Assembly: GCA_017447445.1 (NCBI GenBank)
Contig: JAFSNK010000003.1
Coordinates: 62,001-126,000 of the forward strand
Reading direction: 5' to 3'
Source of the DNA: Clostridia bacterium
GTDB taxonomy: Bacteria > Bacillota > Clostridia > Oscillospirales > CAG-382
DNA: 64,000 bases
The notes under the pieces were generated by a model that saw only the letters and a list, made by a program, of their open reading frames with translations, ran no database searches and had not been told where the DNA came from. The position numbers were made by a program, and so were the translations under genes. Each line of letters opens with the position of its first letter. Position 1 is the first letter of the stretch. Positions 12,199 to 30,828 of the stretch are shown in pieces.

Positions 12199-12264
12199 AA
12201 CCATAAGGGCAACACTAAAGTGTGTACTAAACACTGGAATAGCATATGCAGTAGAGGATTTTTA

Positions 12265-13063: not shown

Positions 13064-14329
13064 ATGAATACGAGAAGCATGGAAGATAGAAACAGATGCA
13101 TTGATACACTTTTTGTGATTGGGAACGGTTTTGATATATGGCAGGGCTTGGGGACGAGTTATAACGAGTTTAGAGAATACTATTTAACTCATCGGGATCA
13201 AATCTTGAAGCGCCTGCATATAAAGAAACGCCAAATAGTTTGTTCTTCCGGGAAAGTGATAGAACTCAGCGATGTTGAGTTGGTCTATGGAGATCCATTT
13301 CATCCTAAAGAACTGGACAAAGAGTTTTGGGGGAATTTTGAAACATCTCTAAGTGAAATAGATACCGAAAGACTTAACCTCTTTTTCGATAAAGATCGCA
13401 AGGGCCTACGGGCAATGGAAAAGAGCGTAAGAAACGCGAAGAGAATACTGACGGAAGCCTTTTGCGGATGGATTGCATCTCTTACCATAACCAAACAAAA
13501 GAGTGAGTATGATTTTGGTAGCAACTGTGTGTTTATCAACTTCAACTACACAGACACATTGGAGAAACGCTTTGGCGTAAGCAGCAATCTGATTTATCAC
13601 ATCCACGGCGAAGCCTCGGATAAAAAATCAATTATCTTTGGACATTCAAAGCATCCGCAGCTTCCGGAGCCATTCCTGTATCGAATTGGCGGAAGATATA
13701 GAGGCTTGTACTTTGTAGATAGGCTACTATATGAAACGGACAAACATGTGCAAGATAACATCCAATCGCTTTGCATGTTTCTTGCACTCAGCGGAGCAAG
13801 TTGCGAGAGCATAAAAAACATCTATATCCTTGGACAATCAATGAGCTTGCCGGATCTTGAATACTTTGCATTTCTTGCAAGTGCTACATCAACAAAAGAA
13901 AATGCGAAGAAGGAAAGCGAATCTGCAAGTGCTGATGAGGAACAGAATGCGCTTGATGAGTTGTTCTTAAACCTTCAATATACGGTTGACCGTGTAGGAT
14001 ACGGGCTTGATGAAGATGAAATTGACGAGGAAGAACTAAAAGCCATTGAAAGAAGACGCATAAGCGAGCAGGAGGATAGATCCTCTCAGTATCAAAACCT
14101 CTTCTATAAGATGCTGAAAAAAGGACAAAAGAAAAAAGCCCTAGATATGGATGGCGATAGATGCCTACCGGATAAGCGAATAGAAGACGCTAAATGGATC
14201 ATCTCATATCATGGCGATAAATCAAGAATTTGGATTGAAAAAGTCATGGAAACACTGGGATGCAGCAACTACCAACTATACCCAACAATTGACGAATGTA
14301 TTGCTCAGTATAAGGTTTGCGTGAAATAG
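13064..14329 (+). CDS. AbiH-family abortive-infection protein (second, divergent copy)
   Basis: The 421-residue protein has FVIGNGFDIWQGLGTSYNEF near the start, FINFNYTDTLEKRF and YHIHGEA in the middle and IYILGQSMSLPDLEYF, the AbiH motif set. A long charged insertion (about residues 280-360, Glu/Lys/Asp-rich) makes it larger than the backbone copy. The start at 13064 has a poor RBS; an ATG 15 nt downstream is an alternative. It is AT-rich. With the 83-residue gene behind it, it lies between imperfect direct repeats inside a locus that otherwise makes glycan, which suggests an inserted defence cassette. Confidence 0.85.
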   Translation: MNTRSMEDRNRCIDTLFVIGNGFDIWQGLGTSYNEFREYYLTHRDQILKRLHIKKRQIVCSSGKVIELSDVELVYGDPFHPKELDKEFWGNFETSLSEIDTERLNLFFDKDRKGLRAMEKSVRNAKRILTEAFCGWIASLTITKQKSEYDFGSNCVFINFNYTDTLEKRFGVSSNLIYHIHGEASDKKSIIFGHSKHPQLPEPFLYRIGGRYRGLYFVDRLLYETDKHVQDNIQSLCMFLALSGASCESIKNIYILGQSMSLPDLEYFAFLASATSTKENAKKESESASADEEQNALDELFLNLQYTVDRVGYGLDEDEIDEEELKAIERRRISEQEDRSSQYQNLFYKMLKKGQKKKALDMDGDRCLPDKRIEDAKWIISYHGDKSRIWIEKVMETLGCSNYQLYPTIDECIAQYKVCVK

Positions 14330-14818: not shown

Positions 14819-16099
14819 ATGTTTGATAGATCAAATCTTACTCCTCTGGAAAAGCATGTTCATCTTGCAATTGCAACACCTCACGAGGAAATGATGACTT
14901 ATGTCAGAGAAGCATTTGACGCTAACTGGATTACAACTGAAGGAGATAATGTCAGAGCGGTCGAAAAAATAGCGGCTGAGAAAGCGGGCGTTAATTATGC
15001 GGTCGGTCTTTCTTGCTGTACGGCCGCTCTCCATCTATGCGTAAAAGCTGCCGGAGAAAAGTTGTATGGTAAACCTTCAATTGGTAAAGGTGCTATCGAA
15101 GGAAGGCGAGTTTTCTGCTCCGACATGACCTTTGACGCCACCGTGAATCCAATTGTCTATGAGCACGGTATCCCGGTTTTTATTGATACCGAACGCGACA
15201 CATGGAACATGGATTCGGTAGCCCTTGAAAAAGCTTTTGAAATGTATCCTGATGTCAAGTTGGTGATGTTTGCTCATTTGTATGGCTTCCCAGGCCGCAT
15301 TTCAGCAATAAAATCTATATGCGAGAAGCACGGCGCACTCCTTATCGAAGATGCCGCCGAAGCAATGGGTGCTACTTACAAAGGCAAGCAGTGTGGAAGT
15401 TTTGGAGACTATGCTGCAGTATCATATAACGGCAATAAAATTATCACCGGCTCTGCCGGAGGCTGTCTGCTTACGAATGACCTTGAAACTGCGAACCGCG
15501 CTCGCAAATGGGCAACACAAGCGAGAGAAGCAGCTCCGTGGTATCAGCACGAAGAACCGGGCTACAATTATCGGCTGAGCAACATTGTGGCTGGCTGTGT
15601 CAGAGGTCAGTACCCATATCTTGAAGAGCATATTTCGCAAAAGAAAGCGGTTTGGGAGAGATACAGAGATGGGCTTAAAGATCTCCCAATCCAGATGAAC
15701 CCGTGGGATAAAGAAAACTCTTCTCCGAACTATTGGCTTAGCGCGATGATTATTGACAAAGAAGCTATGTGCAAGCAGGTCAGATCAGACAATGATGCGG
15801 CGTACATACCGGAACACGGAAAGACTTGTCCGACCGAAATTCTTGAAGCTCTGAAATACATGAACGCCGACGGTCGACCGATCTGGAAGCCGATGCACAT
15901 GCAGCCGATGTACCGAATGCACGAGTTCATCACGGTGGACGGCTCCGGCAGATGCAGAACAAACGCCTATATCGCCGGCGGAGTCGAAGATATCGGTGCA
16001 GACATCTTCCAGCGCGGTCTATGCCTGCCGAGTGATAACAATATGACAAAAGAGCAGCAGAAAGCAATCATTGAGACGATACGAAAATGTTTTGAATAA
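14819..16099 (+). CDS. DegT/DnrJ/EryC1/StrS-family aminotransferase
   Basis: The 426-residue, full-length PLP enzyme has AVGLSCCTAALHLC (cofactor phosphate), IEDAAEAMGATYKGKQCG (Asp contacting the pyridine nitrogen), and YNGNKIITGSAGG, whose Lys should form the Schiff base with PLP. Members convert keto-sugars to amino-sugars, or in some pathways aminate cyclitols and aromatic precursors. It is the first intact gene of the glycan locus, followed by the phosphoglycosyl transferase, so a nucleotide-linked amino sugar is the likely product. RBS GAGG precedes the ATG. Confidence 0.9.
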   Translation: MFDRSNLTPLEKHVHLAIATPHEEMMTYVREAFDANWITTEGDNVRAVEKIAAEKAGVNYAVGLSCCTAALHLCVKAAGEKLYGKPSIGKGAIEGRRVFCSDMTFDATVNPIVYEHGIPVFIDTERDTWNMDSVALEKAFEMYPDVKLVMFAHLYGFPGRISAIKSICEKHGALLIEDAAEAMGATYKGKQCGSFGDYAAVSYNGNKIITGSAGGCLLTNDLETANRARKWATQAREAAPWYQHEEPGYNYRLSNIVAGCVRGQYPYLEEHISQKKAVWERYRDGLKDLPIQMNPWDKENSSPNYWLSAMIIDKEAMCKQVRSDNDAAYIPEHGKTCPTEILEALKYMNADGRPIWKPMHMQPMYRMHEFITVDGSGRCRTNAYIAGGVEDIGADIFQRGLCLPSDNNMTKEQQKAIIETIRKCFE

Positions 16100-16203
16100 T
16101 GGCTTTTGACGAGTACTTTTCGAGTAATACTCTGAATGTGCTTTCTCGCTAATATACTTGTTGGCAGAGAATGTTATTCTTGAGTTAGCGGGAGATGTTT
16201 TTT

Positions 16204-16863
16204 ATGTACCAAAACTATATAAAAAGAATGTTCGATATTGTATTATGCTCAATAGCATTATTGTGTTTTTCTCCTTTATTTCTGATAACTGCACTAGCTA
16301 TAAAACTGTCAAGCCCGGGACCTGTTTTTTATTATTCTGATAGGGCTGGAAAGGACAAAAGAGCGTTTCATTTTTATAAGTTTCGTTCAATGCATATGGT
16401 TGATGAAAACCACAAACAAAAAGATTTATACACCGCTGATGCTGACAGATTATTTTGGGTAGGACGGTTGATTAGGCGACTGAAAATTGATGAATTACCT
16501 CAATTGATAAATGTTATTAAGGGAGATATGAGTATAGTTGGTCCACGCCCGATGCCTGTATCAAGCGTTGATCATCAGTATTGCGGAGAGTATGCAGAAA
16601 TACTCACTGTTAGACCAGGTTTGACGAGTGCTGCCAGTTTATTCGATTACACAGTTGGAGAAGAGTATGCAAATGATGAGGAAGCTTACAGAAGAATTGT
16701 TGTACCCCAAAAGTTGAAAATGGAACGGTTGTATATAAAGAAACAAAGTTTTAGATATGATGTCAACTTGGTTTGGAGAACAATAATAACAATTATTATG
16801 GTGGCCTTTGGGTGCAAAAAATATCCAAGGCAACCAGAGATTAAGGAAATTGAAGTGATTTGA
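16204..16863 (+). CDS. Phosphoglycosyl transferase (PglC/WcaJ-type sugar transferase)
   Basis: The 219-residue monotopic enzyme starts with a re-entrant membrane helix (MFDIVLCSIALLCFSPLFLI), then SSPGPVFYYSDRAGKDKRAFHFYKFRSM, then the catalytic KIDELPQLINVIKGDMSIVGPRP block. It transfers a sugar-1-phosphate from a nucleotide sugar to undecaprenyl phosphate, the first membrane step of glycan assembly. The short length means the PglC-type catalytic core without the extra WcaJ domains. The start at 16204 is chosen because the RBS GCGGGAG would abut the ATG at 16195. Confidence 0.9.
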   Translation: MYQNYIKRMFDIVLCSIALLCFSPLFLITALAIKLSSPGPVFYYSDRAGKDKRAFHFYKFRSMHMVDENHKQKDLYTADADRLFWVGRLIRRLKIDELPQLINVIKGDMSIVGPRPMPVSSVDHQYCGEYAEILTVRPGLTSAASLFDYTVGEEYANDEEAYRRIVVPQKLKMERLYIKKQSFRYDVNLVWRTIITIIMVAFGCKKYPRQPEIKEIEVI

Positions 16864-16878
16864 CGGGGTGACAATAAT

Positions 16879-18063
16879 ATGATAATTGATAAAGAGGGAA
16901 AAGACCGCAAAATAAGAGTATTAATATACGGAGCGGGAGGAAAACAAGCGCTGCCAATGTGTAAAGGCTTCTATTCATTAGGCTGCGATGTGACTGCGTA
17001 TTGCGAATCAAAGCTTGATACAGGCTATTTGACAAGGTTTAAAACTCGAAGTGTTTTGTACGATAAAAAATCTAAAAGTAGCTTTTATCAGTATGGAGTT
17101 CAACTAATTGAGTCTAAACAATATGACTTAGTAGTTCCAATAGGAGATGAAGGGGCGGCGTTTCTATCCAAGCATAAAAAGGAACTTGAAAAGTATTGTA
17201 AAATTGCAGTAAATGATTGGGGAGTATTTGAACAGATAATTGACAAATCAAAAACAATGAAGGTTTGCAATGATAACAACATACCCGCACCTATTACACT
17301 TATAAGCGATAATCCCCTAGAAGAAATACAAGAAGGAAGAATTGGTTTTCCTGTTGTGGTTAAACCAAAGACAGGAGTAGGATCTATTGGATTCAACATT
17401 ATTCGTGATGAAAAGAGATTAGAGGAATATCTGAAATCTTATGATAACAGCAATGGTCCGATTTTAGTTCAGGAGTATATTGAGCAAGGTGATAACCCGC
17501 AGTTTGGCGTGGATGTTTTCCGCGACAGGGATGGTATCATTCGAATGGCCATAGCTTGCAAAGTATCTAGATGGTATCCAATAGATGGAGGATCGAGATT
17601 ACACTCTATTTCCATTCATGATCCCGAAATGGTAGGTAACTGCATTAAACTTGTTGAAAAGCTCAATTATGTTGGATTTGCCAATATGGATCTTGTTTGG
17701 GATATTAACGATAAAAAGGCAAAAATTCTGGAAATCAATGGTAGAACCGGCGCGTCTGTCAAATTAGACTATCTATCTGGTATAGATGTTGCGAAACTTA
17801 TACTCCAAAACGAATTAGGGCTTACTGTTGATTCTGCCTTGGAATATCAAGATGGCAAAGAAGTCTCATGTTTTTTAGTTGATTTATTATGGTTTATAAA
17901 ATCACCAAAAAGATTCTCGACTACCCCTTCATGGTTTAATAGGAGACCAATAAAGGATCTTGTGTTCTCTTGGAATGACCCATTTCCGGCATTTGGTTTT
18001 CTTGTTACGAGTATAAAGGGATTTAGAAAATCCATGAACAAAAGAAAACGCTATAAAGGATAA
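16879..18063 (+). CDS. ATP-grasp carboxylate-amine ligase
   Basis: The 394-residue protein has a pre-ATP-grasp fold (VLIYGAGGKQALPMCKGFY), lysine-bearing strands (GFPVVVKPKTGVGSIGF), ILVQEYIEQGDNPQFGVDV, and the metal-binding ILEINGRTGASVKLDY. It resembles carbamoyl-phosphate-synthase-like and D-Ala-D-Ala-ligase-like enzymes. ATP-grasp enzymes activate a carboxylate as acyl phosphate and join it to an amine. The next gene encodes an Asp/Glu racemase, so attaching a (D-)amino acid to an amino sugar is a reasonable hypothesis. The substrate is not shown by the sequence. Confidence 0.85.
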   Translation: MIIDKEGKDRKIRVLIYGAGGKQALPMCKGFYSLGCDVTAYCESKLDTGYLTRFKTRSVLYDKKSKSSFYQYGVQLIESKQYDLVVPIGDEGAAFLSKHKKELEKYCKIAVNDWGVFEQIIDKSKTMKVCNDNNIPAPITLISDNPLEEIQEGRIGFPVVVKPKTGVGSIGFNIIRDEKRLEEYLKSYDNSNGPILVQEYIEQGDNPQFGVDVFRDRDGIIRMAIACKVSRWYPIDGGSRLHSISIHDPEMVGNCIKLVEKLNYVGFANMDLVWDINDKKAKILEINGRTGASVKLDYLSGIDVAKLILQNELGLTVDSALEYQDGKEVSCFLVDLLWFIKSPKRFSTTPSWFNRRPIKDLVFSWNDPFPAFGFLVTSIKGFRKSMNKRKRYKG

Positions 18064-18070
18064 AAAAGAT

Positions 18071-18778
18071 ATGAAAAAAATAGGAATAATAGGAGGAATG
18101 GGCCCTTTAGCTACTGTTGAGCTTTTTAGACTTATAGTAGAAAACACCGCGAGCAAAACAGATGCAGGACATATAAGACTCTTTATTGATAATAATCCCC
18201 AAATTCCAGATAGAACCGAAGCAATATTGCACAATGGACAATCACCAGTATCTGCCATTATTGAGTCTGGACATAACTTGGAAAAAATTGGAGCGGATAT
18301 ATTGCTGATACCATGTAATACGACTCATTTTTTCTATGATGAATTATCGAATGCATTTCATGCAGAGTTGATAAACATGGTTGAGGAAACGGTAAAACAG
18401 ATCTCCGAGAATGGATTGAAAACAGTAGGTTTTTTGGGAACTATTGGTACAATTAAGGGTAGGGTATACGACAAGTATTGTCAGAAGTACGGAGTGGACC
18501 TAATTCATGTTGAAGAACCCCAACAAGAACAGGTTATGGACTTTATTTATAAAGGGGTAAAAGCCGGAGCTCCGTCCTACAATTCATTCGATATGCAGAA
18601 TATAACGGATTCACTGTATGAAAAAGGTTGTGAGTCTATTATTTTGGGATGCACTGAATTGTGCTTGGGCTTTGAAATGTACAATGTTCGCGTTGGTAGT
18701 TTTACTGAACCTATGAGAGTGTTGGCTGAAAAGGCAATTATTAAAGCAGGATATGAATTAGTGAGGAATAATCAATGA
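18071..18778 (+). CDS. Aspartate/glutamate racemase family protein
   Basis: The 235-residue cofactor-independent racemase starts IGIIGGMGPLATVELFRLI and carries both catalytic cysteines: LLIPCNTTHFF and IILGCTELCLG. Family members interconvert L and D aspartate or glutamate. Specificity is not clear, but it is not the murI type by its start motif. It begins 8 nt after the ATP-grasp gene and overlaps the deacetylase gene by 4 nt (ATGA). Confidence 0.9.
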   Translation: MKKIGIIGGMGPLATVELFRLIVENTASKTDAGHIRLFIDNNPQIPDRTEAILHNGQSPVSAIIESGHNLEKIGADILLIPCNTTHFFYDELSNAFHAELINMVEETVKQISENGLKTVGFLGTIGTIKGRVYDKYCQKYGVDLIHVEEPQQEQVMDFIYKGVKAGAPSYNSFDMQNITDSLYEKGCESIILGCTELCLGFEMYNVRVGSFTEPMRVLAEKAIIKAGYELVRNNQ

Positions 18779-19472: not shown

Positions 19473-20044
19473 ATGAGAGGTAAAAGGTTGTTTAGAACAA
19501 TACAGATGTATTTAACACTAAGTTCATCAAAGCGAACAGCTTATTTGCGAAAATGGAAAGTTTTTGCATCTTTAGGAAGTAACTGCTCAATTATGGATAG
19601 AAAAATACCTTTATACTCAAATTTAATAAAAATTGGCAACAATGTTCATTTAGCATCTAATGTTGAGTTCACACCTCATGATATATCCCATGTTGTATTG
19701 AATAATTGTGGATATTTACACGGGGGGGGGTAAAAGAGAAAATAGGTTGTATTGAAATTGGTGATAATGTTTTTGTTGGATCCCATTCTAATATTCTTGC
19801 AAATGTCAAGATTGGATCAAATGTGATTGTTGGCGCAGGAACGCTGGTAAATAAAGATATACCCGATAACAGTGTTGTTGTTGGCGCTCCAGCAAAAATT
19901 ATCGGATCATTTGATGATTTTGCTAAAAAGAGAGAAAATGAAAAGACGTACCCAGACTGTTTTTCGGTGGTTGGAGAAGCAATCGACCCGAAATTTGCGG
20001 AATGGTTATGGTCTGATTTTTATAAACAAAGGCAAGAGAGGTAG
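19473..20044 (+). pseudogene. Hexapeptide-repeat sugar acyltransferase, frameshifted at a G9 tract (candidate phase-variable gene)
   Basis: From the ATG at 19473 (RBS AAGGAG) the frame runs through LIKIGNNVHLASNVEFTPHD and reaches a TAA right after the G-run. The rest continues in another frame from the G-run: [23 protein letters not shown], then the classic [26 protein letters not shown], to a TAG at 20044. With 10 or 7 Gs instead of 9 the two halves join into one protein of about 190 residues with left-handed beta-helix repeats of the maltose/serine O-acetyltransferase type. As written it is OFF. A sequencing or assembly error in the homopolymer is the alternative. Confidence 0.8.
19722..19730 (+). 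repeat. Homopolymeric G9 tract (slipped-strand switch candidate)
   Basis: Nine consecutive Gs after CAC lie inside an otherwise AT-rich coding sequence. They sit exactly at the point where the acyltransferase changes frame. Confidence 0.9.
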
Positions 20045-20047
20045 TGC

Positions 20048-20686
20048 ATGAAAAAGATTTATATTGTCGGAGCTGGTGGGTTTGGGAGAGAACTCCTTTG
20101 GTGGATAAAAGATATTAATACGAAGAAACCAACTTGGGAAATTGCAGGTTTTTTGGATGATGATCCGCACGCCCTTGATGGCTATGAGTGCGATTATCAG
20201 ATAGTTGGTAGCATAAAAGAATGGGAACCGAAGGAAAATGAAGAATTTGCTCTTGCGTTAGGATCTCCCGCATTGAAACGTAAGATTGTGAAAGTATTGA
20301 AAGCTAAAGGTGCAAAGTTTGCTACTGTTATCCACCCCACGGCAATGTTGTCTGAGTTTGCCCATTATGGCGAAGGCTTCATTATGTTTCCAAATGCAAA
20401 GCTCTCGGCTAATTCTACGGTTGGAGACTATGTAACGCTTCTTTCATCACCTATAGGGCATGATACCATAATAGGTGATTATTCCGTGATCAGTGGGAAT
20501 TGTAATGTAGTGCGGAATGTGGTTATAGGGAAAGATGTATTCCTTGCTGCTGGTGTATGTGTTGCACAGGACATTCATGTTGGTGATGGTGCGTATCTTG
20601 GCCTTGGCTGTGTTGTATTAAAGGATGTTCAGCCTGGAGCAACTATGTTTGGCAACCCTGCAAGGGCGATGCCGAAAACAAATTGA
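20048..20686 (+). CDS. NeuD/PglD-type sugar N- or O-acyltransferase
   Basis: The 212-residue protein has an N-terminal Rossmann-like nucleotide-sugar site (IYIVGAGGFGRELLWWI; GFLDDDP) and a C-terminal left-handed beta-helix with hexapeptides (VIHPTAMLSEFAHYGEG, IGHDTIIGDYSVI, GDGAYLGLGCVVLKDV). This is the layout of NeuD and PglD, which acetylate the amino group made by a DegT aminotransferase on a UDP-sugar. With the aminotransferase and PGT upstream it completes a Pgl-like trio. The acyl donor could be acetyl-CoA or an acyl carrier protein such as that at 22262. Confidence 0.9.
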   Translation: MKKIYIVGAGGFGRELLWWIKDINTKKPTWEIAGFLDDDPHALDGYECDYQIVGSIKEWEPKENEEFALALGSPALKRKIVKVLKAKGAKFATVIHPTAMLSEFAHYGEGFIMFPNAKLSANSTVGDYVTLLSSPIGHDTIIGDYSVISGNCNVVRNVVIGKDVFLAAGVCVAQDIHVGDGAYLGLGCVVLKDVQPGATMFGNPARAMPKTN

Positions 20687-20698
20687 TGGAGGAAAACT

Positions 20699-22246
20699 AT
20701 GAGAAGCAGATTAGCAAGTTTGTTTTATGAAAATGCACAGGCGACACCTGAAAAACTCGCCATCTGGTGTGATGGAAAGACCGCCACCTACGAAGAAATG
20801 GCCGACCTAGTCAGCAGATACTCTAATCTCCTGCTGAGTCAAGGAGCTGTCTATGGCGACCACATTGCCATTCCTATGAATAACAGCATTGAATCTGTAG
20901 CGCTGTTTTTCTCTGCTGCCGATCTTGGTATCTGTGTCGTTCCGCTTAACCCATCTCTCCCGCTGGAGGCAATCAAGGCTGCAATGGAGGCAGGCGATAT
21001 CAAGCATGTGATCGCTCGTAAAGCATTCTATAGTGACTGCGAGAAGAGCGGTGGGCTGAATATACCAGGTTTTAAGATTTGCCTTGATCAGGAGTATCCC
21101 GGGACAGTTCCTTTTGCAAAGATTGACGATATGTCTTCCGAGCGTCCAACTATTGATCACGACGTAGATGGTAGTGAAAGCCTTATTCTTACTATGACGT
21201 CAGGTTCCACCGGAACGCCGAAGCCTATTGATATTAGCCAAGACAACAAGTATGATCGGTCTATGGCTCATATTCGCGTATATAAGATTACAAAGGAAGA
21301 CAGAATCATTGCAGCGACGCCGTTGTACCACTCTCTGGCAGAACGCCTTGTTATTCTGCCTCTAATTCTTGGAGCAACATCGATCCTGCTTCCACGCTTT
21401 ACCCCAGCTATCTGGCTCAAGTGTGTGGAAGAACAGAAACCTACGTTTACGATTGCTGTCTCAGCACAGCTGGCGCAGATTCTGGAACTGCTCAAGAGGC
21501 CTGATGCACCTCAGATTAACAGTTTTCGTAGTATCGTTTCTTCCTCAGCTTTGCTGGAAGCAAGTGTAAAGTATGAACTGATTGATCTCCTCCATTGTGA
21601 GTTCCATGAGATGTACGGCGCATCGGAGGTTTCCACAGTAACAGATATCTGTTTCCAAGAAGCCAAGGACAAGCAGAATTCTGTGGGTCTGCCCTTCGAC
21701 GAAGCGAAGATTAAGATTTTGCGCGATGAGAGCGAGTCAGATTTTGATACCGATTGTGCCCCCGGTGAAGTTGGCGAGATTGCTGTAAAGTCCAAGCTCC
21801 AGTGTAAAGGCTATTACAAGCAGGAAGCTATGATGCAGGCCGCGATGTTTGGTGATTACTTCCGTACAGGCGACCTTGGGTATCTTGATGAAGATGGCTA
21901 CCTGTACTTCGCCGGTCGTAAGAAGGAACTGATCATCACAGGTGCTATCAATGTCTATCCGCATGATATTGATGTGATTATTGGCAGATTGCCGGAAGTT
22001 GAAGAGTGCGCTGCTTTCTCGTATCCCGATGACAGGCTGGGCGAAGTTGTTGCTTTGGCTGTCGTGCCGAAAGAAGATCATGAGATTAACCTTCGAGCCC
22101 TGAGAACATATTGTGCGAGAAATCTGGCTGACTTCCAGCAGCCGCATAAGGTGTTTGTTGTGGATAAGCTGCCCAAGAACACTATGGGTAAACTTCAGCG
22201 AATGGCGATATTGGATTATGTTCGTTCCGCTGGATTAGATGATTAA
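20699..22246 (+). CDS. Adenylate-forming acyl/aryl ligase (ANL superfamily)
   Basis: The 515-residue protein has the full set of ANL motifs: P-loop LTMTSGSTGTPKP (about residue 165), EMYGASE (about 303), YFRTGDLG (about 388), and the C-terminal lysine in MGKLQR (about 497). It activates a carboxylic acid as acyl-AMP and loads it on CoA or on a carrier protein. A dedicated acyl carrier protein gene follows 15 nt later, so the acyl-ACP route is likely. In a glycan locus this suggests a specialised acyl group destined for a sugar. The acid is unknown. Confidence 0.9.
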   Translation: MRSRLASLFYENAQATPEKLAIWCDGKTATYEEMADLVSRYSNLLLSQGAVYGDHIAIPMNNSIESVALFFSAADLGICVVPLNPSLPLEAIKAAMEAGDIKHVIARKAFYSDCEKSGGLNIPGFKICLDQEYPGTVPFAKIDDMSSERPTIDHDVDGSESLILTMTSGSTGTPKPIDISQDNKYDRSMAHIRVYKITKEDRIIAATPLYHSLAERLVILPLILGATSILLPRFTPAIWLKCVEEQKPTFTIAVSAQLAQILELLKRPDAPQINSFRSIVSSSALLEASVKYELIDLLHCEFHEMYGASEVSTVTDICFQEAKDKQNSVGLPFDEAKIKILRDESESDFDTDCAPGEVGEIAVKSKLQCKGYYKQEAMMQAAMFGDYFRTGDLGYLDEDGYLYFAGRKKELIITGAINVYPHDIDVIIGRLPEVEECAAFSYPDDRLGEVVALAVVPKEDHEINLRALRTYCARNLADFQQPHKVFVVDKLPKNTMGKLQRMAILDYVRSAGLDD

Positions 22247-22261
22247 AAGGAGTCAGAGTCT

Positions 22262-22516
22262 ATGGAAAACGTAAAAGACTTTATTATTGATTACATCCAG
22301 AAAGAGTATACGATACCGGATGATATTGATATTATCAATCTAAACTTTGTGGAAGAAGGATACGTTGATTCACTGGGCTTAGTGCAGTTTATATACACAA
22401 TTGAAGACGAGTTTGGTATTTCCTTCTCTGATGACGATCTGCAAAATCCGGATATCAAGGTTGTGGGAAAGCTTATTGCAATTGTTGAATCAAAGATGGA
22501 GGCTGGAAAACAATGA
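22262..22516 (+). CDS. Acyl carrier protein
   Basis: The 84-residue acidic four-helix protein has the phosphopantetheine attachment serine in YVDSLGLVQF. It is distinct from a housekeeping AcpP (NLNFVEEGYVDS rather than the usual LGADSLD pattern) and belongs to the dedicated carrier type found with stand-alone adenylation enzymes. It overlaps the aldolase start by 4 nt. Confidence 0.9.
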   Translation: MENVKDFIIDYIQKEYTIPDDIDIINLNFVEEGYVDSLGLVQFIYTIEDEFGISFSDDDLQNPDIKVVGKLIAIVESKMEAGKQ

Positions 22517-23460
22517 ATGTTGATGGAATAAAAGTTGTAGACGCAACACTTAGAGACGGCGGATTGGTTAATGACTTTTACTTCGACGATGAGTTTGTGA
22601 AAGCGCTATATAAGGCAAATATCGAAGCCGGAGTGGATTATATGGAGTTTGGCTATAGAGCCAGCAAAAGACAGTTTGATCCTGCCGCTTTTGGAAAATG
22701 GAAGTTTACGAGTGATACAGATATATTGAATGCAATTGGAAAAAAAGATTCACGGATGAAGATTTCCATCATGGTTGACGTAGGAAGAACTGATTTCCAA
22801 GAAGACATCGGACCACGTAAAGATAGCCCGGTAGATTTATTCCGAGTAGCAACCTACATTGAAACTATCCCCGAAGCAGTTGAGATGATTAACTACATAA
22901 GCTCAATGGGCTATGAAACGACTTGTAATCTTATGGCAATAACAAAATGTACAGACGAGCAAGTTGCAAAAGCGATATATGCAATAGCCCAGACCCCTGC
23001 GCTCGCTATGTACATCGTTGATAGTTATGGTGCAATGTATCCAAAACAGACAAGGAAACTCACAAGACTCTATCATAATATTCTCGCCCCTGTAGGCAAG
23101 GAAGTAGGAATTCACGCTCACAACAATCAGCAATGTGCGTTTGCAAACACTCTTGAGGCAAAAGATCTTGGAGCGAGGTGGCTTGATGGAACAGCATTCG
23201 GTATGGGGCGCGGAGCAGGCAATTGTCATTCAGAAGCGCTTTTGGGTTATTTGAACGGAAAGAAATATCATGTTGAGCCAATTCTGAAGCTTGTAGAAGA
23301 ATGGATGCTTCCTATGAAAAATGCAGGAACTGAGTGGGGTTACAACACTTCCTATATGCTTACGGGGCTTACCAACCAGCATCCGAGAACGGCGATAGCA
23401 GCGACGAAAAAGAAAGATTATCAGTTTACTGAACAGTTTAAGGTTCTATCATATCAATAA
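22513..23460 (+). CDS. HMGL-like (DRE-TIM) aldolase
   Basis: The 315-residue TIM barrel has the metal/catalytic motif VVDATLRDGGLVND at the N-terminus, YIVDSYGAMYP, and the metal histidines in GIHAHNNQQCAFAN. The family includes 4-hydroxy-2-oxovalerate aldolase, HMG-CoA lyase and isopropylmalate-type synthases. Members similar to this one occur in polysaccharide loci without known function. It could make or cleave a 4-hydroxy-2-oxo acid used by the adjacent ligase/ACP pair. Confidence 0.85.
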   Translation: MNVDGIKVVDATLRDGGLVNDFYFDDEFVKALYKANIEAGVDYMEFGYRASKRQFDPAAFGKWKFTSDTDILNAIGKKDSRMKISIMVDVGRTDFQEDIGPRKDSPVDLFRVATYIETIPEAVEMINYISSMGYETTCNLMAITKCTDEQVAKAIYAIAQTPALAMYIVDSYGAMYPKQTRKLTRLYHNILAPVGKEVGIHAHNNQQCAFANTLEAKDLGARWLDGTAFGMGRGAGNCHSEALLGYLNGKKYHVEPILKLVEEWMLPMKNAGTEWGYNTSYMLTGLTNQHPRTAIAATKKKDYQFTEQFKVLSYQ

Positions 23461-23498
23461 TAATATACTGATTTGGAAGGGTATGGGAGATAAAGCAT

Positions 23499-24674
23499 AT
23501 GAAAGATATAGTAACTGTGGGTGTTGTTGGTGCTGGTCGAGCACTGGAACTTCATGACTTCGGATACAAAAGATCAAACATTCCCTGCCGATTGAAAACG
23601 GTTATGGCAAGACGAGCCGAACAAATAAACATGGCAGTTGAGCGTTATCGTTTTGAAAAAGGGACAAATAACTACGATGACCTTTTGAATGATCCAGAGA
23701 TTGATGTCATTGACATCTGTACTCCACCGTATGTCCATAAAGAAGAAATCATCAAGGCAATGCGAGCGGGAAAACATGTTATTTGCGAGAAACCTCTTGT
23801 TGGATATTTTGGCCGTCCTGGTGACCCAGAGCCTATTGGAGAAAAAGTTTCGAAGAAGTATATGTTTGAGTGTTTGTTGAAGGATCTTGATGAGCTTAGA
23901 GCAGTGCGCGATGAAACAGGAAAACGTTTTATGTATGCGGAGAACTTTGTGTACTCACCTGCAGTTCTTAAGGCGGGTGAGATCATCCGCGCTAAGAAGA
24001 GCCGAATTCTTTATATGAAAGGCGAAGAAAGCCTAAAGGGTTCGAGCTCTGCTGTTGCCGGTGAATGGAATAAAACCGGTGGGGGTATTTTCATGCGAAA
24101 TGGCGTCCATCCTTTGGGAGCTATTTTATATCTTAAAGAACAGGAGTCCATATCTCAAGGTCATAATGTTACCGTTAAGAGCGTTATAGGGGATATGGGC
24201 TATGCGACAAAAAGACTATCAGAACATGAGCATAGGCATATCGCAGCCCGCCCTCATGATGTGGAAGATGCGGGGACAGCAATCATTACATTTACCGATG
24301 GTAGCAAAGCAACAATAATCTCCACAGACAACTTGCTTGGTGGTAGCAAGAATTATGTGGAAATCTATGCGAACGACACCGCTATTAACTGCCGCTTAAC
24401 AATGAATGATGCTATGGAAACGTATATGGTGGACGATGAGGGTATGGACGGGGTTTATCTTTCTGAGATGCTTCCTATTGTCACTGGATGGAACAAACCA
24501 TTCGTAGCAGATGAGATGCTTCGTGGCTATTGTAACGAGATTGTGGATTTTATGGGAGCTGTCATGGAAGATCGTGAGCCAGAGGGGTGTTTTGATTTAG
24601 CCGCTCAGGTTATGAAAGTTACATATGCAGCCTATTACTCCAATGAAGAAGGTAGAAGAATTGATTTGTGTTAA
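23499..24674 (+). CDS. Gfo/Idh/MocA-family NAD(P)-dependent oxidoreductase
   Basis: The 391-residue protein has a Rossmann start (VGVVGAGRALELHDFGY), DICTPPYVHKEEIIKAM, and the family EKP motif (HVICEKPLVGY). The C-terminal catalytic domain includes NGVHPLGAILYL with a likely catalytic His. Family members oxidise or reduce sugars, inositols and cyclitols. Its place between an aldolase and a dehydroquinate-synthase-type cyclase parallels the oxidoreductase (RifL) used in aminoshikimate pathways, but that is an analogy only. Confidence 0.9.
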   Translation: MKDIVTVGVVGAGRALELHDFGYKRSNIPCRLKTVMARRAEQINMAVERYRFEKGTNNYDDLLNDPEIDVIDICTPPYVHKEEIIKAMRAGKHVICEKPLVGYFGRPGDPEPIGEKVSKKYMFECLLKDLDELRAVRDETGKRFMYAENFVYSPAVLKAGEIIRAKKSRILYMKGEESLKGSSSAVAGEWNKTGGGIFMRNGVHPLGAILYLKEQESISQGHNVTVKSVIGDMGYATKRLSEHEHRHIAARPHDVEDAGTAIITFTDGSKATIISTDNLLGGSKNYVEIYANDTAINCRLTMNDAMETYMVDDEGMDGVYLSEMLPIVTGWNKPFVADEMLRGYCNEIVDFMGAVMEDREPEGCFDLAAQVMKVTYAAYYSNEEGRRIDLC

Positions 24675-24704
24675 AAATGACTTTTCGACTGAGGAGTTAA
24701 TGTG

Positions 24705-25766
24705 ATGAGACGGATTCATGTTGAGGTGTCTAAGCCATACGATGTGTTGATTGGAAGAGGCTTAATCGGCAATATTTCGGGGATAATTAATCCAGTTCTG
24801 AACAGTAGACAGGTTGCAATTGTTACCGATGACATTGTTCAAAAATGTTATTTAGATAGAGTAGTAGAAAACCTTGAAATAGCTGATTTGAAGGTCTGCT
24901 CTTTTTCGTTCCCCAACGGAGAACAGTCAAAAAACATCGAGACACTATCCTCTATCCTCGAGTTTTTAGCATCAAATCATATACGGCGAAACGATACACT
25001 TGTTGCACTCGGCGGTGGGGTTGTCGGCGATATTGCCGGGTTGGCAGCATCATTGTATATGCGAGGCGTCAATGTAATTCAAATTCCAACAACGCTGCTC
25101 GCTGCGGTTGATTCTTCTGTCGGCGGAAAAACAGCTGTTAATCTATTACATGGGAAAAACCTGGCAGGGGCTTTTTGGCAACCGAGCATAGTTGTCTGCG
25201 ATGTTGATATTATTGAAGGGCTTCCCAATGATATTTTTTCTGAAGGAATGGCAGAAGTAATCAAGTGCAATGTGATTAAAGATTTGCCGATCATTAGTTG
25301 GATTATTGGGAATACACTGAAAGACCATCTTGAAGATGTCATCTATAATTGTGTTGAATTAAAACGAGAAATAGTTGAGCAAGATGAATATGATAATAAG
25401 GGAATAAGAAATGTTCTAAATGTAGGACACACTATAGCACATGCTATTGAGAAACTAAGCGACTATACGATTTCTCATGGCAGAGCTGTCGGTACAGGCA
25501 TTGTAATAGAGGCTCAATTAGCAAATGAACTAGGAATATGTGATGCTAATACTGTCAATGCTTTAAGATTAGCCATTAGTAAATTCAACCTTTGTGTTGA
25601 TATTTCATGGAGTAACGAAGAATTATTCAACGCCATGCAAAATGATAAAAAGAACCGAAGCGATCAGATTGTATTTGAGTTGCCAATTTCGCTTGGAAAA
25701 TATAAAGAGATAAGGCTTAATAAAGAACAAATACTGTCCCTTCTTAACATTGCTGTAAAATATTGA
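24705..25766 (+). CDS. 3-Dehydroquinate-synthase-type sugar phosphate cyclase
   Basis: The 353-residue protein has NAD-binding ALGGGVVGDIAGLAAS, IPTTLLAAVDSSVGGKTAVN with GKNLAGAFWQP, and metal ligands in AEVIKC (Glu), NVGHTIAHA (His) and ISHG (His). Substrate-binding Lys/Arg/Asn positions typical of DHQ synthases (ELKREIV, GIRNVLNVGH, DKKNR) are kept. One oddity is HGRAV where nearly all DHQ synthases have HGEAV. A housekeeping aroB would normally sit with other shikimate genes, so this copy probably makes a special carbocycle for the glycan. The ATG at 24705 is preferred over the GTG before it because of RBS spacing. Confidence 0.9.
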   Translation: MRRIHVEVSKPYDVLIGRGLIGNISGIINPVLNSRQVAIVTDDIVQKCYLDRVVENLEIADLKVCSFSFPNGEQSKNIETLSSILEFLASNHIRRNDTLVALGGGVVGDIAGLAASLYMRGVNVIQIPTTLLAAVDSSVGGKTAVNLLHGKNLAGAFWQPSIVVCDVDIIEGLPNDIFSEGMAEVIKCNVIKDLPIISWIIGNTLKDHLEDVIYNCVELKREIVEQDEYDNKGIRNVLNVGHTIAHAIEKLSDYTISHGRAVGTGIVIEAQLANELGICDANTVNALRLAISKFNLCVDISWSNEELFNAMQNDKKNRSDQIVFELPISLGKYKEIRLNKEQILSLLNIAVKY

Positions 25767-25853
25767 AGGTCAACTTTTTTTCAGACTTTTATGCGATGTT
25801 TTCTTGAATCAGGCAGCTTGGCTAAAGAATATTCTGACGTGGAGAGTAAAGTT

Positions 25854-26909
25854 ATGGAAACAATTGGATTCATTGTCCCAGTTTATAAGGTTTGTGAGGA
25901 ATATTTAAAACAATGTGTATTTAGTTTGATTAATCAAACATACAAGGATATTGAAATAATACTAGTCGACGATTGCTCTCCTGATAGATGTGGCGAACTT
26001 TGTGATGAGCTAAAATGCAAGGACAATAGAATTAAGGTGGCGCATCATCTAAGCAATAGAGGTCTTCCTGAAGCTAGAAATACAGGAATTAGTATTTCAA
26101 CTGCTAAGTGGCTTGCATTTGTGGATTCCGACGATTGGCTTGATCTCAATACTGCGGAGACACTAGTATCAGAAATAAATAAACAAAGAGCCGATATATA
26201 TATTTTTTCCGGATACAGGGAGTTTGATGGTAAAACATTAGAATGCGCATTTACTTTTGATAGTGAACGGTTATTTAGCACTTATGCTGAACGTAATGAG
26301 TTAGAGGAAAGATATTTACTTGACCAATCAAGAATCAGAGTTCCTAATTCATTTTCACTTCAATCAGCATGTATTAGGCTTGTTTCTCGCAGCTTGTTCA
26401 GTGAAGGATTGAAGTTCATAGATGTAAAATATGCAGAAGATGCTTTGTTTCACTTGTATTCAACGGAATACGCTAACAGTGTAAAGTATATTAGGCAAAG
26501 GTTTTACCATTACCGAGATACTAATGGGAGTATGGTAAATAGTTTTAGACCAAATGCTGAAAAAGAACAGATTTCAGTTTTGCGAGAAATATGGAAATTT
26601 GCAAATACATATAATAAAGATGATAGGTTTAAAAAGAATATTTCGCTGGTTGCATTTTTGGCAATGCAGAACTGCGTTTGGCAAAAGTATTTTCATCCAA
26701 GTTATAACAAAAGCATTAGAATAAGACAAAAAGAATGCAAAGAACTGTTCCACACAGAATACTTCAAAGACGTCTATAATAATATATCTATAAAAGACTT
26801 GGCAACTAATCAAAAGATAAAATATGTTCTGTTTAGGTTGCGATTATACAGTTTGGCGAATTGGTTAAGAAGTCGCCAAAAGATATTATTTGGCGAGAAA
26901 AGTCAATAA
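25854..26909 (+). CDS. Glycosyltransferase family 2
   Basis: The 351-residue GT-A enzyme has IGFIVPVYKVCEEYLKQCV, the nucleotide-binding ILVDDCSPD, RGLPEARNTGI and the metal-binding FVDSDDWLD. It lacks transmembrane helices and has a basic C-terminus, fitting a peripheral membrane enzyme that extends the lipid-linked glycan. The start is placed at METIGF because an RBS (GTGGAGAG) precedes it; the upstream 21 codons look unlike family members. Confidence 0.9.
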   Translation: METIGFIVPVYKVCEEYLKQCVFSLINQTYKDIEIILVDDCSPDRCGELCDELKCKDNRIKVAHHLSNRGLPEARNTGISISTAKWLAFVDSDDWLDLNTAETLVSEINKQRADIYIFSGYREFDGKTLECAFTFDSERLFSTYAERNELEERYLLDQSRIRVPNSFSLQSACIRLVSRSLFSEGLKFIDVKYAEDALFHLYSTEYANSVKYIRQRFYHYRDTNGSMVNSFRPNAEKEQISVLREIWKFANTYNKDDRFKKNISLVAFLAMQNCVWQKYFHPSYNKSIRIRQKECKELFHTEYFKDVYNNISIKDLATNQKIKYVLFRLRLYSLANWLRSRQKILFGEKSQ

Positions 26910-26924
26910 GAGATAGGAGTTCGC

Positions 26925-28136
26925 ATGAACGTTAACAATAGAATTTCTGTTAGGATAAACAAATTATCGATAAGCATTCAGGATCTGCTTCTATATATTG
27001 TGTATGGTTTTGTCATAACGAGTTCAATTGTAAACAAGAATGCACATGCTTCAGGATATGTTTTTATGATACCAGCAATATTGGTAACATATGTTTATTC
27101 TTTTCTTATATGCAATCATAAGAACATAAAAAAAAGCTACTACATTTACTTGTTTTTTATAGGAATTACTTTGATTTTTTCCACATTGTTTTCAACAACA
27201 CTACCAGAGACAAAATATGAGATAATTCTATCGGTTCTTATTTGGCATTTGTTCTTCATTGCTTTAACGCAAATAGAATACTCAAAGATTAATGTTATTT
27301 CGATATTCAATATTTATCTGATCATCGCAGTTATATTAAGCGTTATGGGCCTTGCAAACGCTTATAATGGAGTTGTCAACGAGGCTGGAAGGGCAAGCAT
27401 ATTTGTCTTTGGAATAAGAAAAGACGGCAACTATTTTTCAGCTTTTTTAGCACCTGGTTTTTGCTATGCTTTTTTCAGATTTTTGTTTGTTAAGCGTAAA
27501 ACATGGTACTATCTAATAGCTGGCGTTATTATACTATTAGGCATCTATATGACTGGGTCAAGAGCTGGCTTTGCTTCTGTTATTTTATCGGCGGTTATAC
27601 TGATTGCTGCTTTTTTGTTTAAGACGGGTTTTACTGCAAGGAAGCTGATAATTTTCTGTTTTATTACAGCGTTTGTTGTCCTCTTGTATAGGTTTTTTAG
27701 TAATACAAATTTATTCCAAAGGATGCTAGCTTCTGACAGTTACTCGAATGATATTCGACTCGTGATTTGGGGGAAGGCAATAGAAGCATTTAAGATTAGC
27801 CCGATCTTTGGTTCAGGAAGAGGTTCAGGCGAGTATTTTGCAAGGATGGCAACAGCACACGTAATACACAATTCATTTATTGAACTTCTGTGTGATCAAG
27901 GAATAGTTGGAGTTCTGCTTTTCTTATGTTTATTTGCAAAAATGTTTTTCGTTAAAAAATCAAATATAGTTATTATGATTGCATTTTTTGTAAGTTGCTT
28001 TGCACCGCTGTTTTTTATTAGTGCATATCAAACATGTGGATGGTGGCTCCCGATTGCTTTGTGTCTAATAATGGCGGAGAAATTACAATCCGAAGATGCA
28101 AGTGTGGTATTCGATGTTAGTAAAAATATTGACTAA
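26925..28136 (+). CDS. O-antigen ligase/Wzy-type polymerase
   Basis: The 403-residue protein is very hydrophobic with about ten to twelve membrane helices. The large loop contains GSRAGFAS and later FGSGRGSGEYF followed by HNSFIELLCDQGIVG, the arginine- and histidine-bearing Wzy_C pattern. It should polymerise lipid-linked repeat units on the outer face of the membrane, together with the flippase at 29368. Confidence 0.85.
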   Translation: MNVNNRISVRINKLSISIQDLLLYIVYGFVITSSIVNKNAHASGYVFMIPAILVTYVYSFLICNHKNIKKSYYIYLFFIGITLIFSTLFSTTLPETKYEIILSVLIWHLFFIALTQIEYSKINVISIFNIYLIIAVILSVMGLANAYNGVVNEAGRASIFVFGIRKDGNYFSAFLAPGFCYAFFRFLFVKRKTWYYLIAGVIILLGIYMTGSRAGFASVILSAVILIAAFLFKTGFTARKLIIFCFITAFVVLLYRFFSNTNLFQRMLASDSYSNDIRLVIWGKAIEAFKISPIFGSGRGSGEYFARMATAHVIHNSFIELLCDQGIVGVLLFLCLFAKMFFVKKSNIVIMIAFFVSCFAPLFFISAYQTCGWWLPIALCLIMAEKLQSEDASVVFDVSKNID

Positions 28137-28232
28137 TCAATTGCGGCACCAACATCGTCATCAAATTGAGTCATGCATTAGTTCTATTTTCAATTATTGT
28201 TATATTTTAAGTCTTTTAGGGTGGCGAAGGAT

Positions 28233-29354
28233 ATGAAATTACAGTTTAAACAGTTGATGGCACGAATGTTATTTAAAACAATGAGAGTGTTCCCCATAGA
28301 CAAAAAGAAAGTTGTTTTTTCGAGCTTTAGAGGTAAATACAATGATTCACCGCGGATTATCTCCGAAGCATTGAGCAGAACTGGAAAAGCTAAACAAGTT
28401 TGGATCGTAAATGAAGGTATTGATGTTCCCGAGAGTATTACAAAGGCAAAGCCAAAATCAATTTCTTCCCTATACCATCTGGCGACCGCTAGAGTTTGGG
28501 TTGATAACTCTAGAAAAGAAATATGGGTTTCAAAAAGGAAAAAACAGTTTTATATCCAAACATGGCATGGTGGTGTCTGTATAAAAAAAGTCGAAAAGGA
28601 TGCGGAAGACAGGTTGCCCCCAGTTTATGTAGAAAGCGCAAAAAACGACTCCAAGATGGCAGATATCTTTGTGTCAGAAGCGGAATGGAGGACTAGAAAT
28701 TACCGCTCGGCTTTTTGGTACGAGGGGGAAATAGTAAAAGGTGGCATATCCAGGAAGCAGAGTATTGACGAAGCTCATGCTAGAAAAAAAGTTCTGGATT
28801 TTTTTGGCATTAACGATAATTGCCATTTTGTATTGTATGCACCCACATTTAGAAATAACCACGATTTAACTTGTTATGATATTGATTACCACGCTCTAAT
28901 AAATTGTCTTGAAAAAAAATATGGCGGAGATTGGAGAATAATAATTCGACTACACCCAAACATTTCAGATAGTGAGAATCATTTAGTATATTCGGAAAAA
29001 GTGCTAAATGGTTCAGATTATCCGATTCTTAATGAGCTTTTGGCTATTTCTGATATGTTAATTACCGATTTCTCAGGGTGTATGTTCGATGCCGTCAGAA
29101 GAAAACTGAAACTCGTACTATATGCGTCGGATTATGATGATTATTTGAAAAATGAACGAGGATTGTATTTTGATTTATCAAACTTCCCAGCACCACTTGC
29201 AAAAAATAATTCTCAATTATTAGATATTGTTAACTCGTTTGATGTGAAAAAATACGAAGAAGATTGTCAGAAAATGATAGATCAATTAGGCTTTTATGAT
29301 GTCGATGCGACACCATTGATTGTCGATAGAATTCTGAGTGTAATACTCAAGTAA
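28233..29354 (+). CDS. CDP-glycerol glycerophosphotransferase family protein (TagB/TagF-like)
   Basis: The 373-residue protein has YIQTWHGGVCIKKVEKD, VLYAPTFRN, IIIRLHPNIS and MLITDFSGCMFDAV, the ordered signature of the TagB/TagF family that moves glycerol phosphate from CDP-glycerol. With the TagD homologue at 30914 it points to glycerol-phosphate decoration or linkage of the glycan. Start chosen at the second ATG (RBS GAAGGA region); upstream codons are poorly supported. Confidence 0.88.
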   Translation: MKLQFKQLMARMLFKTMRVFPIDKKKVVFSSFRGKYNDSPRIISEALSRTGKAKQVWIVNEGIDVPESITKAKPKSISSLYHLATARVWVDNSRKEIWVSKRKKQFYIQTWHGGVCIKKVEKDAEDRLPPVYVESAKNDSKMADIFVSEAEWRTRNYRSAFWYEGEIVKGGISRKQSIDEAHARKKVLDFFGINDNCHFVLYAPTFRNNHDLTCYDIDYHALINCLEKKYGGDWRIIIRLHPNISDSENHLVYSEKVLNGSDYPILNELLAISDMLITDFSGCMFDAVRRKLKLVLYASDYDDYLKNERGLYFDLSNFPAPLAKNNSQLLDIVNSFDVKKYEEDCQKMIDQLGFYDVDATPLIVDRILSVILK

Positions 29355-29367
29355 TGGAGGGGCTAAA

Positions 29368-30828
29368 GTGTTTGCCTCGCTAAAAAAAAGATATGGGCAA
29401 CTGTCAAAACCGATAAAAGCATCAATATGGTTTTTGATATGCTCTTTTCTCCAAAAAGGTATTTCTGTTTTCGTGACTCCAATATTTACGAGACTTCTTA
29501 CAACAGAAGAATATGGTGCATATGATGTTTTCAATTCATGGTTGAATATTTTGACAGTGCTTGTTACCTTAAATCTGTATGCAGGAGTTTATACACAGGG
29601 ATTGGTTGTTTTTGAGGAAGACCGAAAAGTATTTTCGTCTACATTACAAGGATTAACACTGGTTCTAACTCTCATTTGGACGATTGTTTACACGCTGTTT
29701 TCCGGTTTTTGGAATAATCTCCTTTCCCTTACCACGGTCCAAATCTATGCTATGTTATTAATGATGTGGTCAACCGCGGTTTTTGGCTTTTGGGCAGCAA
29801 GTCAGCGTGTTCAGTTCAACTACAAGTTATTGGTGCTTGTCACAATTATCATTTCAATCCTTAAGCCTTTAGCAAGCATTTTGCTCGTAATTAATTCAAA
29901 TGATAAGGTAACAGCACGAATTCTTGGAATAACTTTTGTTGAAGTACTTGGATATAGCGCATTCTTTTTTATTCAGTTGTTCAGAGGAAAAAGGTTTTTT
30001 TCTAAGAAGTACTGGATTTACGCATTAAGCTTTAATTTACCTTTGGTTCCACACTATCTTTCTCAAACCGTTTTAAACGGTGCAGACAAAATAATGATAG
30101 AAAGCATGGTGGGAAAATCTGAAGCGGGCATTTATGGATTAGCTTATTCGATTTCCAATTTGATGATGCTTTTTAATATTGCATTGCTGAATACGCTTAA
30201 CCCATGGATATATCAAAAAATTAAAAGGAGAGAAGAAAAAGACATAGCACCTGTCGGATATGGGTGTCTGATAGGTATAGCAATTGTTAATATGCTGCTT
30301 ATCATTTTTGCTCCAGATTTAGTTCGACTGTTCGCGCCGATTGAATACTATGACGCAATTTGGACAATTCCGCCAGTAGCAATGAGTGTGTACTTTATTT
30401 TTTCATATAGCTTATTTGCCGGTTTTGAGTTTTATTATAAAAAAACGAAAATGATAATGGTTGCAAGCGTTGTTGCTGCACTTATGAATATTGTGTTAAA
30501 TTATATATTCATTAATCTATTTGGGTATATTGCGGCAGGCTATACTACACTTTTTTGTTATATTATCTATAGCGTTGGTCATTATCTCTTCATGAAAAGA
30601 GTATGCAATAAGTATTTGAACGGAAGTATTGTTTATAGGCCAAAGACACTTTTACTTATTTCAATGACCTTCATAACATTAGGCTTTATTATACAGTTTA
30701 CATATTCTTCTAATATCGTTAGATACATTGCCGGAGGAGTAATGCTGGCGGGTATTCTTTTATTCCGAAAACGTATTGTTGCTGCGGCAAAAAATCTGTT
30801 ATCATTGAGAAAGCAAAAGCAATCATAA
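29368..30828 (+). CDS. Wzx-type polysaccharide flippase
   Basis: The 486-residue protein has about 12-14 membrane helices. It starts FLICSFLQKGISVFVTPIFTRLLTTEEYGAYDVF, the standard beginning of the oligosaccharide flippase branch of the MOP superfamily, with LPLVPHYLSQTVLNGADKIMI in the middle. It should flip undecaprenyl-linked repeat units outward. It uses a GTG start with RBS TGGAGGGG. Confidence 0.92.
   Translation: MFASLKKRYGQLSKPIKASIWFLICSFLQKGISVFVTPIFTRLLTTEEYGAYDVFNSWLNILTVLVTLNLYAGVYTQGLVVFEEDRKVFSSTLQGLTLVLTLIWTIVYTLFSGFWNNLLSLTTVQIYAMLLMMWSTAVFGFWAASQRVQFNYKLLVLVTIIISILKPLASILLVINSNDKVTARILGITFVEVLGYSAFFFIQLFRGKRFFSKKYWIYALSFNLPLVPHYLSQTVLNGADKIMIESMVGKSEAGIYGLAYSISNLMMLFNIALLNTLNPWIYQKIKRREEKDIAPVGYGCLIGIAIVNMLLIIFAPDLVRLFAPIEYYDAIWTIPPVAMSVYFIFSYSLFAGFEFYYKKTKMIMVASVVAALMNIVLNYIFINLFGYIAAGYTTLFCYIIYSVGHYLFMKRVCNKYLNGSIVYRPKTLLLISMTFITLGFIIQFTYSSNIVRYIAGGVMLAGILLFRKRIVAAAKNLLSLRKQKQS

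Follow-up and report, generated by a model that had tools for sequence, protein, structure and literature searches.

Gene content of the glycan island

Five consecutive genes on the plus strand lie close together in the window, the whole stretch of 64,000 nucleotides of DNA from a Clostridia bacterium that was analysed. They encode an adenylate-forming ligase (20699-22246; PF00501, PF13193; AMP-binding 1.9e-60), predicted to activate and load an acid; a dedicated carrier protein with a DSL phosphopantetheine site (22262-22516; PF00550, PP-binding 2.2e-8); an HMGL-type, DmpG-like pyruvate aldolase homologue (22513-23460; PF00682, HMGL-like 3e-24), the predicted maker of a 2-oxo-3-deoxy acid; a Gfo/Idh oxidoreductase (23499-24674; PF01408, GFO_IDH_MocA 2.2e-18), predicted to act as ketone reductase or dehydrogenase of the acid; and a second, dedicated 3-dehydroquinate (DHQ) synthase (24702-25766; aroB TIGR01357 342.6 bits, cut-off 305). 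An ORF check of the window found all five intact and at the coordinates first reported, with intergenic gaps of 15, -4, 38 and 27 nt in that order. A PglD homologue precedes the ligase gene by 12 nt, and a glycosyltransferase gene follows 24 nt downstream of the DHQ synthase. The module is placed between sugar-modifying genes and GT2/Wzy/Wzx genes. The sequence-only reading had described five consecutive, tightly coupled genes in this position, and coordinates, gaps and profiles agree with that description.

The genes beyond the module (25791-30828, plus strand) comprise glycosyltransferase, polymerase-like, CDP-glycerol phosphotransferase family and flippase-like ORFs, which would use the decorated sugar. 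PF04464 was matched at 28197-29354, and the names GT2, Wzy and Wzx come from sequence reading only. The Wzx/Wzy-type island was probably acquired horizontally, since its GC content is 33-47% and that of its flanks 53-56%. Among 40 relatives searched, two had a long form of the aldolase that was about 29% identical, and the remaining matches had E values of 5e-10 or weaker. Near the left edge of the island, two proteins starting with GNGFD (13064-14329, and 10342-11310 on the minus strand) resemble, by sequence alone, AbiH-type defence proteins. Short remnants of a DegT aminotransferase and a sugar transferase at 11944-12624 represent a decayed second copy of the start of the glycan locus.

The probable acceptor sugar

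The DegT aminotransferase (14819-16099, plus strand; PF01041 1.7e-71) is PglE-like and predicted to be a UDP-4-keto-6-deoxy-GlcNAc 4-aminotransferase. Its best solved relatives are 1o61/4ztc (3.4e-58), which we take to be the sugar aminotransferase PglE of C. jejuni, and it is 59% identical to its counterpart in a locus of Lachnospiraceae IMSAGC_019 (L065). It is followed by a PglC-type phosphoglycosyl transferase (16195-16863, plus strand; PF02397 2.7e-53), predicted to transfer the first sugar to the lipid carrier. A full-length PglF-type dehydratase of 644 aa is encoded elsewhere in the genome. The acceptor is probably UDP-4-amino-4,6-dideoxy-GlcNAc, as suggested by this dehydratase together with the PglE-like DegT, the PglD/VioB-like acyltransferase and the PglC-like transferase.

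Two other features of this region deserve mention. The gene for a hexapeptide acetyltransferase (19473-20044) occupies two frames that overlap (19473-19733 and 19706-20044) and looks frameshifted, since its counterpart in L065 is a single ORF of 196 aa. At 16879-18778, an ATP-grasp ligase is followed by an Asp/Glu-type racemase that scores 206 bits with the profile of the cysteate racemase CuyB (cut-off 190). The pair may possibly provide a second decoration of the same glycan, a D-amino acid amide.

Predicted activation and transfer of the acid

Orthologues of the ligase occur in six other clusters with 51-74% identity, and the TSGSTG and PKNxMGK motifs are kept. Its best profile matches are fatty-acid-type ligases, every one of them below its own cut-off. 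The DSL site of the carrier is invariant in all seven clusters. The gene directly upstream of the ligase (20048-20686, plus strand) encodes a PglD/NeuD/VioB-type N-acyltransferase (TIGR03570 170 bits, cut-off 160.8), the predicted enzyme for moving the carrier-bound acid onto the sugar amine. Its closest solved structure is VioB (7txp), and it is 70% identical to the counterpart adjoining the ligase in L065.

The locus therefore holds the elements of carrier-dependent N-acylation of the RfbKL/wfp-like kind, namely a locus-specific carrier with an intact DSL serine, a ligase, a PglD/NeuD/VioB-type sugar N-acyltransferase and a 4-aminotransferase. The proposal that ligase and carrier form an acid-activation pair feeding the glycan is supported, with the core kept in seven loci and a PglD-type N-acyltransferase adjacent in two of them, the window and L065. 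Carrier-dependent acylation of the glycan, taken as such, is likely.

A canonical second DHQ synthase

The housekeeping AroB of the genome reaches 289 bits on TIGR01357 (cut-off 305) and is 33% identical to the DHQ synthase of the window. It carries a chorismate-mutase-like N-terminal extension and lies in an operon read as aroA, aroQ, aroE-like and aroC. The single PF00793 DAHP synthase of the genome is found on C3, near this housekeeping aroB; apart from DAHP synthase and AroB, the gene names of the aro operon were assigned by reading. If the window cyclase had been the only aroB of the genome, it could have served general metabolism. The presence of the second AroB in an aro operon leaves the sequence-only proposal unrefuted.

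Motif inspection and alignment to the DHQ synthases of V. cholerae and other solved examples showed that metal, phosphate and carboxylate/substrate-site residues are kept in the window copy (D137, K143, N153, E185, K188, K221, R236, N240, H243, H247, H259 and K316/K317); these residues bind zinc, phosphate and carboxylate in DHQ synthases. The protein scores 214 bits to DHQ synthase 3okf, 126 to the DOIS 2d2x and 84 to the cyclase 4p53. A sugar phosphate cyclase of the C7N/DOIS type was rejected, the protein being closer to DHQ synthases than to inosose or valiolone-type cyclases. From its aroB score, the kept residues and this sequence nearness, the window cyclase most likely makes 3-dehydroquinate.

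The aldolase and the Gfo/Idh enzyme

The aldolase is 69% identical to the copy in L065. By fold, its model comes closest to 3dxi and DmpG-type pyruvate aldolases (TM about 0.8), with Claisen-type synthases at 0.6-0.7. The DmpG/HMGL pyruvate aldolase fold is accompanied by the metal/Arg motif (R14-D15, H201, H203), and Leu18 occupies the position where DmpG has a histidine following RDG. Assignment as a 4-hydroxy-2-oxovalerate aldolase was rejected, since the curated profile gave 107 bits against a cut-off of 286 and Leu18 replaces the catalytic His; the window protein is a relative only.

In other glycan loci, members of the aldolase family stand beside KdsB or KdsC homologues (L062, L063, L168), and from these neighbours the family members probably make 3-deoxy-ulosonic acids. 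Fold and the KdsB- and KdsC-like neighbours of its relatives indicate that the window aldolase likely forms a 2-oxo-3-deoxy acid; that this product is DAHP is a guess. A role as a general replacement of DAHP synthase was discarded, since 23 of the 25 genomes examined also carry a PF00793 DAHP synthase; nearly all of these genomes had been picked for carrying the aldolase family, and the two without PF00793 may be incomplete. Assigning function from neighbours was likewise abandoned: some homologues lie in trp operons, but neighbour clustering of 80 loci gave no consistent partner. Stand-alone homologues in or beside trp operons, with gene names as read from the ORFs, occur in L059-L061, L110, L112 and L134. 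Forms of about 530 aa are found in glycan loci of Bacillota and on a Leisingera plasmid, with a KdsB-like synthetase adjacent in L062 and L168 and a KdsC- or HAD-type phosphatase in L063 and L168. These longer forms are candidates for a non-homologous replacement of KdsA/NeuB in the synthesis of ulosonic acids.

The Gfo/Idh protein is a constant member of the core, with 59-79% identity to its six counterparts. Its predicted fold has a pLDDT of only 49.8.

Sister clusters

Among the best 80 loci of the many retrieved by a genome scan with the aldolase alignment, the module was present only in L065. The gene set there includes DegT, a PglC-like transferase, an FkbH-type protein, a hexapeptide transferase, PglD, ligase, carrier, Gfo/Idh and aldolase. 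The last five stand in the order PglD-ligase-carrier-Gfo/Idh-aldolase, with identities to the window of 70, 74, 61, 59 and 69%. The locus has no DHQ synthase. Its genome gave no DHQ synthase match either, not even for a housekeeping copy, and is therefore probably incomplete, which leaves little weight to the absence. The FkbH-domain protein of L065 (2304-4106; TIGR01686 281 bits) suggests a second carrier-loaded acid (glyceryl) in that glycan.

A search with the ligase across genomes yielded five further clusters (L147, L148, L157, L159 and L158). The first four share the order Gfo/Idh-ligase-carrier-DAHP synthase. Their dedicated DAHP synthases are without a regulatory domain, and the three tested scored 328-401 bits (DAHP-synthase cut-off 267.75). 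The enzyme of L148 (7940-8794) has lost active-site residues, KPRTS being changed to KLGTS and GARNM to RANNM; the L148 genome holds five DAHP synthase matches. Near the core of the same four clusters lies a protein of about 350 aa that gave no Pfam or PDB match; it looks like an acyltransferase from its sequence and was given no weight. Nonulosonate-type genes are near the core in three of these four. An FkbM-type methyltransferase was confirmed by profile in L147 and L158, and similar proteins occur in L148 and L157. In L158, ligase, carrier and Gfo/Idh (79% identical to that of the window) are followed by transposases, with neither aldolase nor DAHP synthase nearby.

The core of ligase, carrier and Gfo/Idh was therefore found together in six other loci and in more than one gene order, which is more than a chance neighbourhood. 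It is joined by the aldolase in one, by DAHP synthase in four and by neither in one, and each of the six clusters having either enzyme, the window among them, has exactly one of the two. DHQ synthase is present only in the window, one of seven clusters. Whether the genes co-occur elsewhere had been named as a decisive point. Outside the window the complete set of five did not turn up, but sub-sets of it do co-occur. The core is rare: it was absent from 149 genomes of a Treponema order, where the ligase was sought in order to connect the module with known acyl groups of flagellin, from 288 genomes of Bacteroidota and from the plasmid collection, and no new cluster came from another 283 genomes in the class of L065. 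Early shikimate enzymes appear to have been recruited twice, separately, to the same core, as DAHP synthase in the sister clusters and as DHQ synthase in the window.

A proposed acid pathway and its alternatives

The genes may form an acyl-donor pathway that N-acylates an amino sugar of a surface glycan with a DHQ-derived carbocyclic, quinate-like acid. This is our preferred reading, held tentatively and at somewhat less than even confidence, and all its substrates, products and the order of its steps are inferred. The aldolase would join pyruvate and a phosphorylated aldehyde, at best guess erythrose 4-phosphate, into a DAHP-type 2-oxo-3-deoxy acid, a step that would fall to the dedicated DAHP synthase in the sister clusters. 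The DHQ synthase would cyclise this product to 3-dehydroquinate, and the Gfo/Idh enzyme would reduce the ring ketone to a quinate-like carbocyclic acid. The ligase would adenylate the acid and load it onto the carrier protein, and the PglD homologue would pass it on to a UDP-amino sugar, at the 4-amino group installed by the PglE-like DegT. The PglC-like enzyme would then begin the repeat unit, to be completed by glycosyltransferases, Wzx and Wzy.

Derivation of the acid from 3-dehydroquinate is the simplest reading because the consecutive DAHP and DHQ synthase steps were recruited separately to a shared core. Quinate is suggested as the ligase substrate because reduction of the 3-dehydroquinate ketone would yield this carboxylic acid, which a ligase could load. 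Several points count against the proposal. Six of the seven clusters have no DHQ synthase and would have to rely on the housekeeping enzyme, unless they can do without this step. The residue losses in the L148 DAHP synthase, the missing DmpG His of the aldolase and the DAHP synthases of most aldolase-bearing genomes also weigh against it, as do the profile matches of the ligase, which are of fatty-acid type and below cut-offs.

The main rival, which we consider unlikely, is a linear acid. From a 2-oxo-3-deoxy acid made by the aldolase (or DAHP synthase), the Gfo/Idh enzyme would reduce the 2-oxo group to give a 2-hydroxy-3-deoxy acid, which ligase and carrier would activate and PglD attach, with the DHQ synthase serving something else or a second product. 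The 2,4-dihydroxybutanoic acid of V. cholerae O1, handled by the RfbL ligase and RfbK carrier, is a precedent, and no DHQ synthase is needed, in keeping with the six of seven clusters that have none nearby. The flagellin of T. denticola presumably bears a linear hexanoyl group of the 3-deoxy type, which also favours a linear acid, although a search of the accessible literature gave no paper describing it. A linear acid does not explain why the operon has a dedicated DHQ synthase of its own, canonical throughout; that cyclase normally acts on DAHP, the compound made by the sister enzyme.

It is improbable that the island simply brought the DHQ synthase along as a spare aroB unrelated to the ligase/carrier module. 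Its occurrence in a single cluster, its place as the last gene of the set beside a glycosyltransferase and its closest solved relatives, which are ordinary DHQ synthases, would suit this view. Only 27 nt separate it from the Gfo/Idh gene, however, the genome already holds an aro operon, and sister clusters recruited the enzyme that acts one step earlier in this pathway.

DAHP synthases without a regulatory domain are common in natural-product clusters. An aromatic acid such as hydroxybenzoate, drawn from a shikimate pathway in which the extra DHQ or DAHP synthase merely raises flux, would fit those of the four sister clusters, the replaceable supply role suggested by the active-site loss in L148 and a weak match of the carrier to the model of the petrobactin carrier AsbD (24 bits, cut-off 100), but is the least probable reading, since the clusters read showed no recognisable dehydratase, aromatase or chorismate lyase and the Gfo/Idh reductase would not be required.

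A carbocyclic or aromatic acyl decoration had been suggested at the outset. The carbocycle is probably right, on the strength of the canonical DHQ synthase and the four sister DAHP synthases rather than of any analogy through DegT, and no dehydratase or lyase for an aromatic acid was seen in the locus. A wider extension of the DHQ-derived proposal is doubtful: a quinate-like acid made by shikimate-recruited enzymes, a decoration not described before, would be attached through amide bonds to amino sugars, both those of surface polysaccharides and, where sister clusters lie near nonulosonate-type and flagellar genes, those of flagellar glycans, with the aldolase as a natural pyruvate-dependent stand-in for DAHP synthase.

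If the DHQ-derived proposal is true, it would link the shikimate pathway to the diversity of surface glycans and add a new class of N-acyl group to those of bacterial glycans. The three-gene signature of ligase, carrier and Gfo/Idh would offer a way to find producers, and a function would be suggested for a widespread family of HMGL-type aldolases, of which the solved structure, 3dxi, bears no more specific name than 'putative aldolase'.

Comparison with known systems

Enzymes of the Gfo/Idh and DegT families, together with a cyclase of the DHQ-synthase fold, are found in aminoshikimate (AHBA) and C7N cyclitol pathways, and the sequence-only reading had drawn an aminoshikimate/cyclitol analogy through DegT. 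This analogy is not supported. The cyclase of the window is a DHQ synthase of canonical type, the DegT protein has 1o61/4ztc as its closest solved relatives and so resembles PglE rather than an AHBA synthase, and neither an aminoDAHP synthase nor a kanosamine kinase was recognised among the ORFs of 14.8-33.6 kb. The Leisingera plasmid locus L168 and similar glycan loci use the same aldolase family, but in the longer form of about 530 aa and with a CMP-ulosonate synthetase, hence for a sugar unit and not an acyl group.

Closer likenesses are found in carrier-dependent N-acylation of surface glycans, of which the locus appears to be a variant, with precedents for the N-acylation and none found for the acid pathway. 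The literature search, conducted mostly without subscription papers, gave no report of this gene set. The view that no described surface glycan has it therefore holds for the complete set within the literature searched, but not for the part made up of ligase, carrier and N-acylation, which has precedents (PMC12208996, PMC6519341).

In Flavobacterium psychrophilum, a PglD homologue is predicted to move the R-group from a locus-specific carrier to UDP-Qui2NAc4N (PMC6519341), which is also the probable acceptor in the window. As far as that source could be consulted, the O-PS R-group genes wfpC-G have PglC-, PglE/F- and PglD-type genes and a locus-specific carrier in common with the window, whereas the acid comes from fatty-acid-type condensing enzymes and no ligase-aldolase-cyclase set is reported.

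The tetronate module of V. cholerae O1 (rfbKLMNO, VC0248-VC0252) shares with the window an adenylate-forming ligase and a carrier inside a glycan locus; an HMGL aldolase, a Gfo/Idh enzyme and a DHQ synthase are not known from it. In that O-antigen locus, ligase and carrier activate a hydroxy acid, which becomes the acyl group of a 4-amino sugar (PMC12208996, PMC3441752). The acid of V. cholerae O1 is linear, whereas that of the window is predicted to be carbocyclic.
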